A DNA stretch of 35,285 bases from Methylocystaceae bacterium (GTDB lineage Bacteria; Pseudomonadota; Alphaproteobacteria; Rhizobiales; Beijerinckiaceae): NCBI GenBank assembly GCA_900299115.1, contig OMIO01000070.1, forward strand, positions 1-35,285, read 5' to 3'. Shown here piece after piece: positions 25,057-32,765 of the stretch. Position 1 is the stretch's first letter. Each line of letters begins with the position of its first letter. Under the pieces are notes generated by a model. That model was given only the letters and a program-made list of their open reading frames with translations. It did not search any database and was not told the DNA's origin. The position numbers were made by a program, and so were the translations under genes.

Positions 25057-26175
25057 TTATTCTACCTCAGCTTCCGCGGTATCTCCCTCGTGATCTAATT
25101 TAGGGGTTCGTTTAAAGGTTGATTTACGACCCTGGAGGGTTTGTAAAATTTTAGCGCCATTTGCGAAGGCAAGATAGATCATCAAGGGCGGAACTGAAGC
25201 CATGGTTTTAATATAGTCTAATATTGTGCCGCGTCTTAATATTAAATAGGGCGTAAGCGTAATTCCAAGAACGACCATTGTGGTCATTAAACCTATGAGT
25301 TTTAAGACTCCAAGGTAGGGCGCAATAGAGCCGTGGAGTATAATCCCGATGAAAGCTGCAATAATCCCGATAGCCGCTGCGGGAAAAAAGATTTGGTGTG
25401 CGATCAGTGAGATTGCCATGATGCGGTTGGTCAATGACCAATGTGAGTTCCATATCGGCGCAATTGTTCTTTGCGCAACTTGGACAAAGCCATTGGACCA
25501 GCGGCGTTGTTGACGTCTAAAATCGCGTATGCCTTCAGGGACTTGTCCCGGAATCGCAGGATAAGAAACAAACAATCCTCGCCAATCTTTTAGCGCGGCT
25601 CTAACGGTCAGATCTAGGTCCTCAGTAAGGGAATAATCAGACCAGCCGCCTGCATCTTCGATGGTGGCGCGTCGCCAGATCCCACCTGTGCCATTAAACT
25701 GAAAGAGCCAACCAGCATTGGCGCGGCTACGTTGCTCGACTAAATAATGGCCGTCTTGAACTAGCCCTTGAGCGCGGGTAAGCCAGTTTGTTTGGTAGTT
25801 TTGGAACTCGCATCGGGATTGAACGAAACCAATTCGCGGATTTGTCAAAAATAATGGCACTGTGCGTTTTAGCCAATCTGTTGGCGGTCTGAAGTCAGCG
25901 TCGAGCATTGCGATGAAGGGTTCGTTGGTTAGGCTAAGCCCATGTGCGCAGGCGCCCGCTTTAAAGCCAGAACGATCAGATCGGCGAATATGATCAATCA
26001 TTGCTCCTGTTGCTGAGAGCTCTCTTATTACGGCGTCTGCTCTAACAGAAGTCTCATCGGTTGAGTCGTCTAGGAGTTGGATGCGTAATTTTTCTCTTGG
26101 CCAATCTAGTTGCGTGACGCATCGCAAGGATTGCTCTGTAACAAGTGGTTCATTAAAGACGGGAATCTGCAGCAA
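25057..26175 (-). CDS. GT2 family glycosyltransferase (CESA/CslA-like); true N-terminus probably upstream of the listed start
   Basis: LQIPVFNE...LLDDSTDET, MLDADFRPP, SLTEDLDL, FRRQQRRWSNGF plus C-terminal TM helices. Listed start is a TTG; frame stays open upstream to 26325 and encodes a TM helix. Confidence 0.85.
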   Translation of the reverse strand: MLQIPVFNEPLVTEQSLRCVTQLDWPREKLRIQLLDDSTDETSVRADAVIRELSATGAMIDHIRRSDRSGFKAGACAHGLSLTNEPFIAMLDADFRPPTDWLKRTVPLFLTNPRIGFVQSRCEFQNYQTNWLTRAQGLVQDGHYLVEQRSRANAGWLFQFNGTGGIWRRATIEDAGGWSDYSLTEDLDLTVRAALKDWRGLFVSYPAIPGQVPEGIRDFRRQQRRWSNGFVQVAQRTIAPIWNSHWSLTNRIMAISLIAHQIFFPAAAIGIIAAFIGIILHGSIAPYLGVLKLIGLMTTMVVLGITLTPYLILRRGTILDYIKTMASVPPLMIYLAFANGAKILQTLQGRKSTFKRTPKLDHEGDTAEAEVE

Positions 26176-26356
26176 TACGCTGGGAAGTTCTGCATCAGAA
26201 GGAACGGGAGTATGCGGGTCTACCGCGCCTTGGATCTGGTCGTAGAAGAAACGTCCAATAACAATCAGATAACCTGCGCCAATGGCAACTAGGACGAGAA
26301 GGCAAGCATAGGCGACGGCATCGACTCAGATCTGGAGAAGTCCGAGCAACAACAGC

Positions 26357-27517
26357 CTATCCTTCTTCTTTCGGCGCTTGCGCCTGAGCAGGGGCGACGC
26401 GCGCCTGAACTGAGCCCTTGGCCCAAACAACCTGGTTTGTGAGCCAGGCGTGAATCCAAACTGTCAACATGACGCCTTCGCGAACAACAAAAATAGCCGG
26501 CGCTAAATATGATAACTGCCACCCTTTGGCTATGGAAAGCAATGTCTCAAGCCCAAACCAGACTACGAAGGCCGCACAAAAAGTCGTTAAGGGATTCAGA
26601 CCCATCTGTGGGGCGGCAATGAGGGCAGCCGCAAGCGTCGGGAGCGCTTGGCAAATTGGCTCAAGCAAGAATGATATGAGCTCGTCGTTACGACGAATGA
26701 CACTCCAGCGTAATTGTCGTTGATAAACGTCATAAAGCTTTCGGCGGCCAAGCTCTTGGCGAACAGGGCGGTGGGAGAAGACGGGTTTTTGACCGATTCG
26801 CCGCATGGCCTTGGCCATAGCGTTATCCTCTCCAACGGTATGTGCAATGGCCTGGAACCCCCCCATGCGCAGAAAATCCGATCGTCGGAACAGCATAATT
26901 TTTCCAACACCGTGGCCTTGCCCAAGCACAGAGGCCAGAAAGAGCATGCGTGCATGAGGCCCGTTGATGATTGCTGCTTCAATATGCGCAGCAAAATTTT
27001 CAAGACCTGCGCAATAGGGAATCGCGCAAACAAGACCGACGTCATTATTTAACTGACGTATGTGCTCTGCTAAAGCGTCTGGCTCAAGTAGAACATTCGA
27101 GTCTTTCATTAGAATGATGTCGTTAGGCGCTTGCATAAAAGGCGCATACAGATTGTCTACCTTGGGACTCGCTGCAAATTTCGCTTTAGAATGGATCACG
27201 CGCGCCGTGACTTCGGGATGGCGCATAAAAATAAGACGCATATGTTCAACCGCAGCTGTCTCTAATGCATCTGTAGCAACAGTAATGTCAAAATTCGGAT
27301 ATAATTGTTTAAAAGCCGACTCTTGCGTGATATCGAAATTATCTTCCAGGATCTTTACGGGCAAGACAATTGAAATTGGCGGCTGATCTTCTCGCTTGGC
27401 TCTTTTTGCCGTGATGCGGGGCTGCAGAATTGTCGCAATAACAGATAAGCAGAGTAAGGTAAAAGAAATCAGGCAATAAACCGCCGCTGAGTAACTAATA
27501 ATAGAAGAAAGTGTCAC
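26357..27517 (-). CDS. GT21 ceramide glucosyltransferase-like / HpnI-like membrane glycosyltransferase
   Basis: 386 aa; SIVLPVKILEDN, MKDSNVLLEPDAL, GHGVGKIMLFRRSDFLRMGGF, GEDNAMAKAM, YQRQLRWSVIRR; N- and C-terminal TM helices. Confidence 0.85.
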   Translation of the reverse strand: MTLSSIISYSAAVYCLISFTLLCLSVIATILQPRITAKRAKREDQPPISIVLPVKILEDNFDITQESAFKQLYPNFDITVATDALETAAVEHMRLIFMRHPEVTARVIHSKAKFAASPKVDNLYAPFMQAPNDIILMKDSNVLLEPDALAEHIRQLNNDVGLVCAIPYCAGLENFAAHIEAAIINGPHARMLFLASVLGQGHGVGKIMLFRRSDFLRMGGFQAIAHTVGEDNAMAKAMRRIGQKPVFSHRPVRQELGRRKLYDVYQRQLRWSVIRRNDELISFLLEPICQALPTLAAALIAAPQMGLNPLTTFCAAFVVWFGLETLLSIAKGWQLSYLAPAIFVVREGVMLTVWIHAWLTNQVVWAKGSVQARVAPAQAQAPKEEG

Positions 27518-28305
27518 GGCGCCTCGCTGCGCTCGCTTGTCTCTGGGACCTCAACATGAAAGCGCCGCATGACGCCATCCACGAGAGCCGCAGGTAGGAG
27601 CGTGAAGAACCGCATAGCGAGATACATAGAGTAAGGAAAAGCAATTACATCGCGTCGGCTTTGCAGTCCCTGCTGAATAATTTCAGCAGCTTTAACATCG
27701 CTTATAGCCCCTGGCTGCCATGATTTTGTTCGTGCTGACATGGGCGTTTTTACAAAGCCTGGTACAATAAGACTAACGCTAACGCCGTGAGCTGCTAGAG
27801 ATCCGCGCAGACAATCTGCCCACATATGGACGGCTGATTTGCTCGCGCAATATGCTGGCGAGTAGGGAAGGGCGCGGACTCCGGCCATTGAACCTACAAT
27901 AGCGAGTTGTCCACGGTGCCTGAGCTGCATAATTGCCATAGCGGGTTCGATAGTATTGAGAACGCCAGACAGGTTAATGTCTAGCGTTGCCCGCACTGCC
28001 GCAGGTGTTTCCAGAATCTGGCCTGGCGAAAGACCGCTTGCTATCCCGGCATTGGCGACAACGATATCAAGCGCTCTGTGTGTATCAGCTTCATGGATGA
28101 TCCGAGACATTTTTTCTTGGTCGCGGACATCGACAGTGTATGCTTGTGTCTCAAAGGCCCCTTTTGCGCGACAAGCCATGGCTGTCTGTTCAAGTCGTTC
28201 TGAATCTCGTCCCAAGAGAGCGAGGCTTGCTCCTTGCGCGGCGTATGCAAGAGCTAGCGCGCGCCCGATTCCACTAGAGGCGCCTGTGATCAGCAAGCGT
28301 TTCAT
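27514..28305 (-). CDS. short-chain dehydrogenase/reductase (probable ketoreductase)
   Basis: 263 aa; LLITGASSGIGRALA (TGxxxGIG), NAGIA, YCASKSA (YxxxK). Confidence 0.92.
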   Translation of the reverse strand: MKRLLITGASSGIGRALALAYAAQGASLALLGRDSERLEQTAMACRAKGAFETQAYTVDVRDQEKMSRIIHEADTHRALDIVVANAGIASGLSPGQILETPAAVRATLDINLSGVLNTIEPAMAIMQLRHRGQLAIVGSMAGVRALPYSPAYCASKSAVHMWADCLRGSLAAHGVSVSLIVPGFVKTPMSARTKSWQPGAISDVKAAEIIQQGLQSRRDVIAFPYSMYLAMRFFTLLPAALVDGVMRRFHVEVPETSERSEAP

Positions 28306-28712
28306 GCCGCAGCCTCAGTCGGAGGGCGCAAGCGCGCTTCGCCTATAATTGCTGGCAGACGCTGTGAACCGTGTGCGAAGAGCCGAACAAATATCTCGGT
28401 GTCAGACACGCGTAATACTTTACCCGTTAGCTTCGCTGTCTCTCCGCGTAGGATTGGCTGGACAAATTTGCCGGAGAGGCCAATAATTTTTAGCTCGCTT
28501 CGCCAGTTTTTTAGCATCGGTTCAAAGGCGGCTAAAATTTTCATGCCATGTACCGGAGGCGCAGAGAAGCCGATTGACTGTGCCAGTTTTTCATCAAGAT
28601 GTAAGGGATTTGTATCACCAGAAATGTCAGCATAATGCTGCAAAGCGTCTGCATCGAATGGGCCAATGATAACTTCTGGAAGTCTTTCTCCAAGTGTGAT
28701 CGCGTAGCTCAT
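28302..28712 (-). CDS. MaoC-like hotdog (R)-hydratase/dehydratase
   Basis: 136 aa; YADISGDTNPLHLDEKLAQSIGFSAPPVHGM hydratase-2 motif; ATGA overlaps with both neighbours. Confidence 0.9.
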   Translation of the reverse strand: MSYAITLGERLPEVIIGPFDADALQHYADISGDTNPLHLDEKLAQSIGFSAPPVHGMKILAAFEPMLKNWRSELKIIGLSGKFVQPILRGETAKLTGKVLRVSDTEIFVRLFAHGSQRLPAIIGEARLRPPTEAAA

Positions 28713-29116
28713 GCTTTTGCTTTCAAAATATCTTGTGGCACAAGGCGCAATATGGTTTCTATTGTCGCTACAAGCTCATTGGTTGTTGTCTTAATTGTAG
28801 CTTCAATGATCAGACGTGAAGGGTCGGTTACGCGCTTCAATAGAACATAAAGATCATAGCTCTCGCCCAACGTTAGCTCTAGTGAATAGTAAAAGCTTTG
28901 AGACTCATGAACCGGAATTACGTCTTGAGACTGACAAAGTTCTTGAATAATTTTCAAGAGGCCTGGCTCTGTCAGCCAGATCGCAGGATAGGTAAGAGGC
29001 GCGGATAGGCCATCGCCGCCAGTCTCTAACGCATAAGTTTTTGCTCGTACCGGGTCGACTTGCAAGCGTAAGGGACCAAGAGATAAACATTGTTTATCAT
29101 TCTGCATGGGTAACAA
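28709..29116 (-). CDS. MaoC-N/HadA-like hotdog protein (probable dehydratase partner)
   Basis: 135 aa; PLTYPAIWLTEPGLLKIIQEL...VIPVHESQSFYYSLELTLGESYDLYVLLKRVTD resembles FAS1/MaoC-N hotdog half; no canonical catalytic D/H motif. Confidence 0.65.
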   Translation of the reverse strand: MLPMQNDKQCLSLGPLRLQVDPVRAKTYALETGGDGLSAPLTYPAIWLTEPGLLKIIQELCQSQDVIPVHESQSFYYSLELTLGESYDLYVLLKRVTDPSRLIIEATIKTTTNELVATIETILRLVPQDILKAKA

Positions 29117-30332
29117 TCAGCACAGCGTTTATTCCGCCGAAGGCGAATGAATTCGACATGGCGGCCTCAATTTTTTGTTTTTGCGCAATATTAGGAGTTG
29201 CGTTAATCGGACAGCGCGTGTCTGCTTCAATAAAATTTATTGTCGGTGGAGCGATTTGCTCCCTTAATGCATTGATTGCTATCGAGAGCTCTAGGCCGCC
29301 GCTCGCTCCAAGTGCGTGACCATGGATTGGTTTTGTAGATGAGACAGGTACGCTACGGCCGTAATCACCGAAAACACGAATAATCGCCTCGGATTCTGTG
29401 ATGTCGTTGGCGTGTGTCGCTGTGCCGTGGGCGTTGATGTAATGGATATCTTCTGGACGCAGTTGGGCGTCTTCTAAGGCTAGTTCGATCGCATGGGATG
29501 CGCCCTCGAGATCGGGTCTTACTGGATCCTTAGCGTCGCTCGTGGTGCCATAGCCTGCTAATTCACATAAAGGAACATGACCTCTGGCGCGGGCTGCTTC
29601 AGCTGTTTCGAGTATAAAAATAGCCGCACCCTCTCCTAAGGACATACCATTGCGGCCAAGCGAGAAAGGCCGACAAAGATTAGGCGTTAAAACCCTTAAT
29701 CCTTCCCATGCGCGAATGGTCGCATTAATTACGCACGCCTCTGCGCCGCCAACGATTGCTTTTTCAATCATGCCTGATCGGATCATTTGCATGCCAAGCC
29801 CAAGCGCCTGGCTCGCTGATGAACATGCGCTGCCAATAGCAAAGGTGGGGCCCAAGCATGAGTAACGCATGCCCAAGGTTGTGGGGGCGGCGCTCGGGAT
29901 AAGTTTTGGAACGCTCAGCGTTTCTGGTCGAATTTTATCTACGTAATAACGATAAATACCGTCTTCAATAGTTTCCATGCCGCCAATGCCTGTGCCAATT
30001 ATGACTGCGGTTTTTGGGCCGGCTATGCCTTTGCGGTCGAACCCGGCCTGCGCAATAGCCTCATCGGCGGCGACTACAGAAAATTGCGTGAAAGGATCAC
30101 AAAACGGAAGTACATTGCCTTCTATGTGGGCGCTAGGGTCAAAATCTGGGACTTGAGCCGCAATCTTAATGCGTCCGTCATAAGGTCGTCGTGTCTCTAG
30201 CGGGCGCACTTGGGATAGACCATCCCGCGCAGCGCGCCACAGGCGGTCCGCTCCTAAGCCAGAGGCGCTCGCCACGCCCATACCAGAGATGACGACACGG
30301 CGTCCCGCCGTACGCCCAGAGGCGCGGGTCAT
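29097..30332 (-). CDS. beta-ketoacyl-ACP synthase (FabF-like)
   Basis: 411 aa; IGSACSSASQALGLGMQMI (Cys), INAHGTATHANDITE (His), STKPIHGHALGASGGLE (His). Confidence 0.95.
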   Translation of the reverse strand: MTRASGRTAGRRVVISGMGVASASGLGADRLWRAARDGLSQVRPLETRRPYDGRIKIAAQVPDFDPSAHIEGNVLPFCDPFTQFSVVAADEAIAQAGFDRKGIAGPKTAVIIGTGIGGMETIEDGIYRYYVDKIRPETLSVPKLIPSAAPTTLGMRYSCLGPTFAIGSACSSASQALGLGMQMIRSGMIEKAIVGGAEACVINATIRAWEGLRVLTPNLCRPFSLGRNGMSLGEGAAIFILETAEAARARGHVPLCELAGYGTTSDAKDPVRPDLEGASHAIELALEDAQLRPEDIHYINAHGTATHANDITESEAIIRVFGDYGRSVPVSSTKPIHGHALGASGGLELSIAINALREQIAPPTINFIEADTRCPINATPNIAQKQKIEAAMSNSFAFGGINAVLIVTHAE

Positions 30333-30596
30333 TTATTGTTTACCGCGTTCTTTCTGGATCTGGTCAGCGAGCGCTTCAATAAGACTTTTTACATCTTTCG
30401 CTTCCTGGAGAGAGCCATCCATTGGAATATAGACGTTAAATTTCTCTTCTAGGGCCGTAAGAATCATTACAATGTCAACAGACTTGAGGTCGAGGCTTTC
30501 AATCGTTGCGTCGGGGGTAATTTTAGAAATATCAACCATGCCCTCGGAAGCAATTACCTCTTTAATCTCTTGAATTAACTGGGTGTTATCTGTCAC
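30333..30596 (-). CDS. acyl carrier protein (GTG start)
   Basis: 87 aa; TPDATIESLDLKSVDIVMILTALEEKFNVYIP, serine in the phosphopantetheine motif; stop immediately precedes the KAS start. Confidence 0.9.
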   Translation of the reverse strand: MTDNTQLIQEIKEVIASEGMVDISKITPDATIESLDLKSVDIVMILTALEEKFNVYIPMDGSLQEAKDVKSLIEALADQIQKERGKQ

Positions 30597-30899: not shown

Positions 30900-32765
30900 A
30901 TGACTGCGCAAGAGACTGCAATCACAGGGGTTTTTCCACAGGCAACCGAGGCCGAATGGCGCAAGCTTGTGGATCGAGCGCTCAAAGGCGGTTCTTTTGA
31001 TGGGCTTGTTTCTAAAACGTATGACGCCATTGCTATGGCTCCCCTCTACGCGCGTGCGCAGGCGGCTGGACCTAAAGTTTACCGGCGAACGCCCGGGCGC
31101 TGGTCTATTCTGTCACGCTTTGACCACCCAATGCCGGAAGTAGCCAATCAGCTTGCGCTTGAAAATCTTGAAGGCGGCGCAGATGGGTTGCATGTGGTGT
31201 TTGCCGGCGCGCAGGGTTCCTATGGTGGCGGCCTAACTGACGATAGCGAAGAAATGATTGCTATCGCCTTTGACAAAGTGCGTTTTGATTTCAGCATTCC
31301 GATAATCATCGAGCAATCTCCGCTTGCGCCTCGCGCAACAGAGTCAATTTTACGATTTATTGATCGCCATCATGTCGAGCCCTCTTTGACGCGTGTATCG
31401 TTTGGATATGATCCAATCGGCTTGCAAGCTTTGCACGGATTTCTTGAACAGCCCTGGGCCAGCACATCCAAGCAGTTTGCCGAAAACGTAAAGCACGTTG
31501 CTGCAAAGGGTTTTAAAATTGGGGTAGCCGTTGCCGACGCTCGCGTCATTCACTCTGCCGGCGGTACTGAAAGTCAAGAGTTGGCGTTTGCCCTCGCTAC
31601 GGCTCTCGCATACCTTCGTGCTTTGGCGGATAATGGCATGAATATTGACGAGGCGCGCAGTTTAATAGCCTTTCGTTTTGCTGTTGATGCAGACGAGTTT
31701 TTAAGCATCGCAAAATTCAGAGCCATTCGACGACTTTGGGCGCGGGTAGAGGAGGTTTGCGGTCTTCAACCAAAGCCTGCGCTCATTTCCGCTGAAACCT
31801 CGTGGCGTATGATGTCTCGTCTTGATCCATGGAATAATATCCTAAGAGGTACCTTGGCGACATTCTCTGCAGCTATCGGAGGCGCTGACACCATTACTGT
31901 ACTACCGTTCACACAAGCGCTAGGAGCTCCTGATGCTTTTGCGCATCGTCTTGCTCGTGACACTCAGCTTGTGTTGCAAGATGAATCTCATTTAGAGGCG
32001 GTTGATGATCCAACTAGTGGGGCGGGTAGTTTTGAGGCCTTGACGCAGGAACTGTGCAATCGAGCATGGGATGATTTCCAGAATATTGAAGCGCAAGGGG
32101 GCGTTTCGAAAGCGCTTGAGAATGGAAAGCTTCAAGGAGCTGTTGCTGAAACCGCTAATCAAAGAGCTAAAAATGTAGCGCGAGCGAGAGAAAAGCTCAT
32201 TGGCGTTAATGAATTTCCAGATATTCATGAAAAAGAACTTCATGTGCTTTCGTCATATGACACGCGGTGGCGCAGCTTAACGGCGCCTCAAAGCGCATTG
32301 ACGACGTCAGCCCTAGCTCCTCGTCGGCTTTCAGAGCCATTTGAAACTTTAAGAGATGCTTCAGACGCCCTTCTTAAAAAAAATGGCGTAAGACCAAAAA
32401 TTTTTCTAGCTAACCTTGGGTCGATCGCTGTTTTCACTGCACGTGCAAATTTTTCTAAAAATTTTTTTGAAGCAGGCGGCATCGAGGCAATTTTTGGACC
32501 CGAGACAGACAAAAATGCTGATATCGTTGATGCTTTTTCTAACTCGGGAGCAAAGCTCGCCTGTCTTTGTTCAAGCGATCGTTTGTATGGTGAGCATGGA
32601 GTGCAGCTCGCCAAACAATTAAGGCAAGCCGGCGCTAAACTTTACTTGGCAGGAAGACCGGGTGAATTAGAGCAACTAATGCGTCAGTCTGGCATAGAGC
32701 GTTTCATTTATGTTGGATGTGATATGTATGAAATTTTAAGTGATGCATTCAATGAGGCAAAATGA
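30900..32765 (+). CDS. mutA: methylmalonyl-CoA mutase small subunit (MutA)
   Basis: 621 aa; VYRRTPGRWSILSRFDHP...GADGLHVVFAGAQGSYGGGL, SWRMMSRLDPWNNILRGTLATFSAAIGGADTITVLPFTQALG, C-terminal pseudo-B12 domain ending IERFIYVGCDMYEIL. Confidence 0.9.
   Translation: MTAQETAITGVFPQATEAEWRKLVDRALKGGSFDGLVSKTYDAIAMAPLYARAQAAGPKVYRRTPGRWSILSRFDHPMPEVANQLALENLEGGADGLHVVFAGAQGSYGGGLTDDSEEMIAIAFDKVRFDFSIPIIIEQSPLAPRATESILRFIDRHHVEPSLTRVSFGYDPIGLQALHGFLEQPWASTSKQFAENVKHVAAKGFKIGVAVADARVIHSAGGTESQELAFALATALAYLRALADNGMNIDEARSLIAFRFAVDADEFLSIAKFRAIRRLWARVEEVCGLQPKPALISAETSWRMMSRLDPWNNILRGTLATFSAAIGGADTITVLPFTQALGAPDAFAHRLARDTQLVLQDESHLEAVDDPTSGAGSFEALTQELCNRAWDDFQNIEAQGGVSKALENGKLQGAVAETANQRAKNVARAREKLIGVNEFPDIHEKELHVLSSYDTRWRSLTAPQSALTTSALAPRRLSEPFETLRDASDALLKKNGVRPKIFLANLGSIAVFTARANFSKNFFEAGGIEAIFGPETDKNADIVDAFSNSGAKLACLCSSDRLYGEHGVQLAKQLRQAGAKLYLAGRPGELEQLMRQSGIERFIYVGCDMYEILSDAFNEAK

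Follow-up and report, generated by a model that had tools for sequence, protein, structure and literature searches.

Which lipid is the product of seven tightly packed genes for an acyl carrier protein (ACP), a ketoacyl-ACP synthase (KAS), two hotdog-type proteins, a short-chain dehydrogenase/reductase (SDR) and two glycosyltransferases of the families GT21 and GT2? This question is raised by contig OMIO01000070.1 of a Methylocystaceae bacterium, whose genome is called G000 here; the whole stretch of 35,285 nt taken from this contig (positions 1 to 35,285) is referred to as the window. From the sequence alone a specialised glycolipid had been proposed (the sequence-only reading): its acyl chain would be assembled on a private ACP by a module of its own, passed on to a lipid acceptor and then glycosylated by two enzymes in turn. 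We conclude, with a probability of roughly three in four, that the seven genes form one half, responsible for acyl supply and headgroup, of a bacterial pathway of the ceramide type leading to glycosphingolipids, with the other half at a second locus of the genome. This is based on gene content, synteny, homology, co-occurrence and the lack of CerR and AasR matches, from which we infer the reactions, their order, the chain lengths and the sugars. The module, the private ACP, the acceptor and the two glycosyltransferases of the earlier proposal are thus supported, and the specialised glycolipid was right in kind; the sphingolipid genes which had been called missing lie outside the window.

The seven-gene block and an operon on a second contig

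The block consists of the following genes, all on the minus strand:

30333..30596, minus strand: ACP, private acyl carrier protein (PF00550, E 7e-7; attachment site Ser39)
29097..30332, minus strand: KAS, FabF-type ketoacyl-ACP synthase (PF00109/PF02801; Cys-His-His intact)
28709..29116, minus strand: HD, hotdog protein, probable non-catalytic HadA-like subunit (AlphaFold2 model and Foldseek)
28302..28712, minus strand: MaoC-type dehydratase, probable catalytic HadB-like subunit (PF01575; Asp33, His38)
27514..28305, minus strand: classical SDR, ketoacyl-ACP reductase or proposed keto-sphingolipid reductase (PF00106)
26357..27517, minus strand: GT21 glycosyltransferase, ceramide-glucosyltransferase-like (PF13506, E 5e-45)
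25057..26352, minus strand: GT2 (CESA-like) glycosyltransferase, probably for a second sugar (PF13632; in-frame TGA at 26326-26328)

ACP and KAS adjoin with a gap of 0 nt. The overlap is 20 nt between KAS and HD and 4 nt at each of the junctions HD/MaoC, MaoC/SDR and SDR/GT21, and GT21 and GT2 are 4 nt apart. Strand, coordinates and junctions agree with the sequence-only reading, apart from the start of GT2: the frame beginning with TTG 26175 is truncated, and compared with relatives homology runs upstream to a TTG at about 26352. The family calls for ACP, FabF-type KAS, MaoC, SDR, GT21 and GT2 are backed by Pfam and NCBIfam.

Via proteins that adjoin the module in relatives, a second operon was traced in the same genome, on contig C187 (locus L125) and likewise entirely on the minus strand:

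G000:C187 11677-12963, minus strand: serine palmitoyltransferase (SPT)-like alpha-oxoamine synthase, adjoining bCerS
G000:C187 10440-11636, minus strand: bCerS-like ceramide synthase (homology to YghO)
G000:C187 9448-10449, minus strand: desaturase (Lipid_DES above cut-off)
G000:C187 8788-9444, minus strand: hydroxylase, Scs7/FA2H-like (Scs7 match, E 7e-25)

That the window has neither an SPT nor an acyltransferase had been held against a sphingolipid cluster. This objection is not supported, since an SPT-like enzyme and a ceramide synthase homologue are located on C187, together with the desaturase and hydroxylase homologues, and are contiguous with the block in a relative. The bCerS-like protein is 36% identical to YghO/Aca of Escherichia coli BL21(DE3) over 378 amino acids (E 7e-84), whose gene is listed in PMC9386255 as aca, the N-acyltransferase among the ceramide genes. 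Its SPT-like neighbour has its best PDB match in an SPT (3a2b, E 3e-62), yet it remains under the cut-offs of the SPT models and belongs to an alpha-oxoamine-synthase clade of its own, with 32% identity to the SPT of E. coli B, 34% to Kbl and 31% to BioF. For bCerS and the desaturase no PDB sequence match was found, and the C187 operon holds no ACP gene. Of 298 genomes of the order 16 have the Lipid_DES domain, against none of 14 controls; the three His boxes of the desaturase are complete in relatives. Scs7 is a ceramide fatty-acid hydroxylase, and the DES-, Scs7- and ceramide glucosyltransferase-type families are mostly eukaryotic.

Glycosyltransferases, synteny and co-occurrence

A GT21 profile made from 18 orthologues matched a solved ceramide glucosyltransferase (also GT21; structures such as 26qf) with E 2e-54 at positions 11-374. 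The window protein thus combines a GT21 domain with similarity to the solved enzyme over its full length, in agreement with the earlier suggestion that GT21 points to ceramide; it differs from that enzyme in being bacterial and in being followed by a GT2 gene. It is reasonably likely that GT21 adds the first sugar. Could both glycosyltransferases rather act on hopanoids or diacylglycerol, with the module making an acyl group for that lipid and a merely coincidental link to ceramide? GT21 belongs to the same family as the hopanoid enzyme HpnI and matches its model in part (147 bits), and G000 possesses a hopene cyclase and no second HpnI-like GT21 match. However, this score is far below the HpnI cut-off of 310, and the presence of GT21 follows bCerS rather than hopene cyclase. 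The window's family is represented by 49 genomes: 41 contain a strong-match GT21 together with bCerS and 8 contain neither, so that the two agree in 49/49, with 0 discordant cases. The genus member G022 has a hopene cyclase and an HpnI-like paralogue and lacks both the strong-match GT21 and bCerS. These patterns, together with the contiguity with ceramide genes in L083/L161 (see below), make such an acceptor unlikely, and the hopanoid role for GT21 was rejected.

Of 17 genus loci that were read, 16 keep the order ACP-KAS-HD-MaoC-SDR-GT21-GT2; in the remaining one, L032, the contig breaks off within HD. All seven genes are found also in two other genera of the family (L048, L083). The grouping is therefore no accident, and the scattered orthologues that would have spoken against the sequence-only reading are not what is found; its placing in Hyphomicrobiales is supported as well. 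The matches listed by a KAS profile search of contigs, mostly FabF-type genes, include L159 (Methylocystis sp.), with all seven genes and a KAS 84% identical to that of the window, and the related locus L163 (Beijerinckiaceae). In L083/L161 the two halves are contiguous, with SPT-like gene, bCerS, DES, FA2H and SDR beside GT2-GT21-SDR-MaoC-HD-KAS-ACP. A partial join is present in L128 and L164, where SPT-like gene, bCerS and DES are joined to GT2, MaoC, HD, KAS and ACP, and L084 contains bCerS-ACP-KAS-HD-MaoC-SDR-GT2-GT2 plus an SPT. At four loci of family f20 (L089, L097, L132, L260) an SPT adjoins MaoC-HD-KAS-ACP and bCerS is a few kb off. Since bCerS directly adjoins ACP-KAS in L084, L091, L093, L098, L166 and L254, it is slightly more likely than SPT to be the enzyme that takes up the acyl-ACP. 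In the bCerS tree the classical, the window-family and the module-adjacent groups stand apart. Genome G232 carries both kinds of ceramide system: L253 is a classical AasR-CerR-AcpR-SPT cluster with bCerS, and L254 is a KAS-module cluster that has a separate bCerS.

Over the 298 genomes of the order, bCerS is present in 28 of 34 genomes with a module-type KAS and in 43 of 264 others (Fisher p 1.3e-14, shared ancestry ignored), and 15 of the 16 Lipid_DES genomes have the module KAS (p 4e-15). The module-KAS genomes span 11 families, nine of which include bCerS-bearing genomes. We consider it very probable that the block belongs to a ceramide-type pathway, and probable that the module supplies the acyl chain of this pathway.

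Genes for a private ACP, a KAS, an SDR and a GT2 are also typical of acpXL and nod clusters, and GT2 has a weak match to NodC (NCBIfam, E 6e-5). The module might then serve, like AcpXL or NodFE clusters, to provide lipid A or a lipo-oligosaccharide with an unusual fatty acid, be it of very long chain, unsaturated or hydroxylated. The block has, however, no LpxXL-, NodA- or NodB-type gene, and in several families the module is linked to SPT and/or bCerS. A product of this kind is therefore very unlikely, and the Nod-like and AcpXL-like readings were rejected as their partner genes are missing from the block.

Several observations weigh against a glycosphingolipid pathway. The neglect of shared ancestry applies to the Fisher tests in general, 6 of the 34 module-KAS genomes are without bCerS, and in several loci the SDR is absent beside the module. 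The modules of L085, L086, L087 and L088, which belong to the same KAS clade, adjoin PlsC-like acyltransferases and not sphingolipid genes; possibly they serve a different lipid product, and hence not every module of this clade need serve ceramide. Kbl and BioF are about as near to the SPT-like enzyme as SPT itself is, so that its amino-acid substrate is not fixed by sequence. In G000 itself GT2 is interrupted by a stop codon: counted from TTG 26352, the ninth codon reads TGA (26326-26328), whereas the Leu codons TTG and TTA stand there in two close relatives. Furthermore, Gln replaces the first His of box 2 in the G000 desaturase, a position at which relatives, among them one that is 97% identical, carry His. 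The TGA may be a nonsense mutation (decay) or an assembly error, and decay or an assembly error may also account for the Gln; G000 is a fragmented assembly of 2.1 Mb with an estimated completeness of 98%.

Divergent from the operon, a gene for a methylmalonyl-CoA mutase small subunit is located at 30900-32765 of the window (plus strand), a neighbour which is kept in most of the genus loci read. PF02461 (methane/ammonia monooxygenase) was found in 9 of 15 genus members tested, with no match in G000. The small-genome subgroup G000, G014, G019 and G027 as a whole has no match to this pmoA-type family, the latter three genomes being incomplete.

The acyl module and the SDR

Ser39 of the ACP is invariant in an alignment with 17 orthologues of 70-100% identity, and the protein shows a weak likeness to AcpR of E. 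coli B (28% over 60 amino acids). In KAS the residues Cys170, His302 and His339 are kept in the alignment, and a phylogenetic tree places the module KAS in a clade separate from housekeeping FabF-type sequences. A solitary KAS, 67% identical to that of the window, adjoins murA and rplY/pth on another contig (G000:C109, L081 8622-9842); it is a genus-specific duplicate that is found in L082 and L160, too.

HD gave no Pfam match, and in a profile comparison it resembled HadA weakly (E 0.045). Its AlphaFold2 model (pLDDT 84, pTM 0.76) shows a hotdog fold. The PDB matches obtained for it with Foldseek were HadA, HadC and hotdogs related to them, the best being 4rlu_A, the HadA of HadAB (E 6e-6, TM 0.62). 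The best NCBIfam model for MaoC is HadB, below cut-off; PDB HadB subunits are matched with E values of about 1e-14 to 5e-13, and Asp33 and His38 are invariant across the alignment. The Asp/His pair is thus predicted in one hotdog subunit (MaoC), with HD as the second. Because the model of HD resembles HadA and MaoC resembles HadB, both together probably form one HadAB-like heterodimeric dehydratase. The elongation cycle with MaoC and hotdog dehydratases and a ketoreductase SDR, as initially envisaged, may have to be modified in two respects: its two dehydratases are better read as this one pair, and the SDR is not FabG-like by its best match.

The best NCBIfam match of the SDR is PRK07024, below cut-off, the FabG models are much weaker, and no PDB sequence match was found at 1e-30. 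By its best match it may act on the sphingoid base instead of in the elongation cycle; that it is the keto-sphingolipid reductase appears to us an even bet. Otherwise the ceramide pathway may operate as proposed, with the SDR serving the module as its ketoacyl-ACP reductase and the 3-keto base being reduced by some enzyme that has escaped recognition. A complete elongation cycle requires a ketoreductase, and the SDR directly follows MaoC in the genus and in L048, L083 and L084. However, the modules of f20, f49, f23 and f22 have no SDR at this place, as if housekeeping FabG sufficed, and the SPT operon of G000 lacks a reductase while CerR is absent. Considering also its best match, we regard the module's own reductase as a somewhat doubtful, though serious, assignment for the SDR. 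In L162 MaoC is followed by a CerR-like gene, which was considered as a stand-in for the SDR and then rejected because it resembles a common NDUFA9-type epimerase (28%).

Proposed pathway and known ceramide synthesis

In the proposed glycosphingolipid pathway, the private ACP would hold the growing acyl chain, KAS would condense it with malonyl-ACP and a ketoreductase would then reduce the product. Dehydration would be due to the HadA/HadB-like pair; the block has no enoyl reductase, and a housekeeping enzyme of this type would close the cycle. The acyl-ACP would feed the ceramide synthase of C187 and/or the SPT-like enzyme, in place of the AasR/AcpR supply of Caulobacter. The SPT-like enzyme would form a 3-keto long-chain base and bCerS would N-acylate it, the SDR of the window reducing the 3-keto group instead of the missing CerR. 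The ceramide might then be modified by the desaturase and hydroxylase homologues and would receive its first sugar from GT21 and its second from GT2.

The gene set known so far consists of AasR, AcpR, Spt, CerR and bCerS (PMC9386255, PMC11324152, PMC11087976). In the Rhodobacteria studied to date, AasR charges AcpR and the acyl-AcpR feeds SPT (PMC9386255). CerR-grade matches (E <= 1e-46) were obtained in all four tested classical-type genomes (G052, G054, G070, G115) and neither in the window's genus nor in the tested genomes of f20, f49 and f50; G000 yielded background epimerase matches only (E 2e-12). AasR had no match in G000 at 1e-10, and genus members hold a 35% homologue within frames of >950 amino acids. 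An AcpR gene directly before spt was not found, the window ACP heading the KAS module. With CerR and AasR missing, the module probably supplies the acyl-ACP, and the SDR may replace CerR. The system of the window shares with the Caulobacter/E. coli B type a bCerS homologue next to an alpha-oxoamine synthase and a dedicated ACP in the pathway. It differs in that its SPT-like enzyme is of another clade and its ACP weakly AcpR-like, and it adds KAS, the HadAB-like pair, SDR and the DES and FA2H homologues. Sgt1 and Sgt2 of Caulobacter put two successive sugars on ceramide (as cited in PMC13318209), a precedent for the two transfers proposed for GT21 and GT2. Mycobacterial FAS-II, with HadAB and KasA-type elongation, likewise has a two-subunit hotdog dehydratase with ACP and KAS, but sequence identity is very low, and the window block is without enoyl reductase and tied to ceramide genes.

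Tentatively, and at somewhat less than even odds, these differences may represent a second architecture of bacterial ceramide synthesis, leading to glycosylated, desaturated and hydroxylated ceramides by eukaryote-like steps, in which a FAS-II-like module (ACP, KAS, HadAB-like) replaces AasR/AcpR and the SDR replaces CerR. In the literature we found nothing on sphingolipids of Hyphomicrobium or Methylocystis, nor on any bacterial synthesis of sphingolipids that includes a ketoacyl-synthase module, which is weak evidence given the limited literature coverage. The one gene set for which ceramide synthesis in bacteria is understood comprises Spt, CerR, bCerS and AcpR/AasR; here, a dedicated elongation module seemingly builds the acyl donor on the spot, and the keto-reductase would be a different one. 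Relatives of DES, Scs7 and ceramide glucosyltransferase in the same bacteria make the bacterial side of mostly eukaryotic families testable. Finally, the glycosphingolipid reading predicts such lipids in Methylocystis-like bacteria and would supply genetic markers for further producers.

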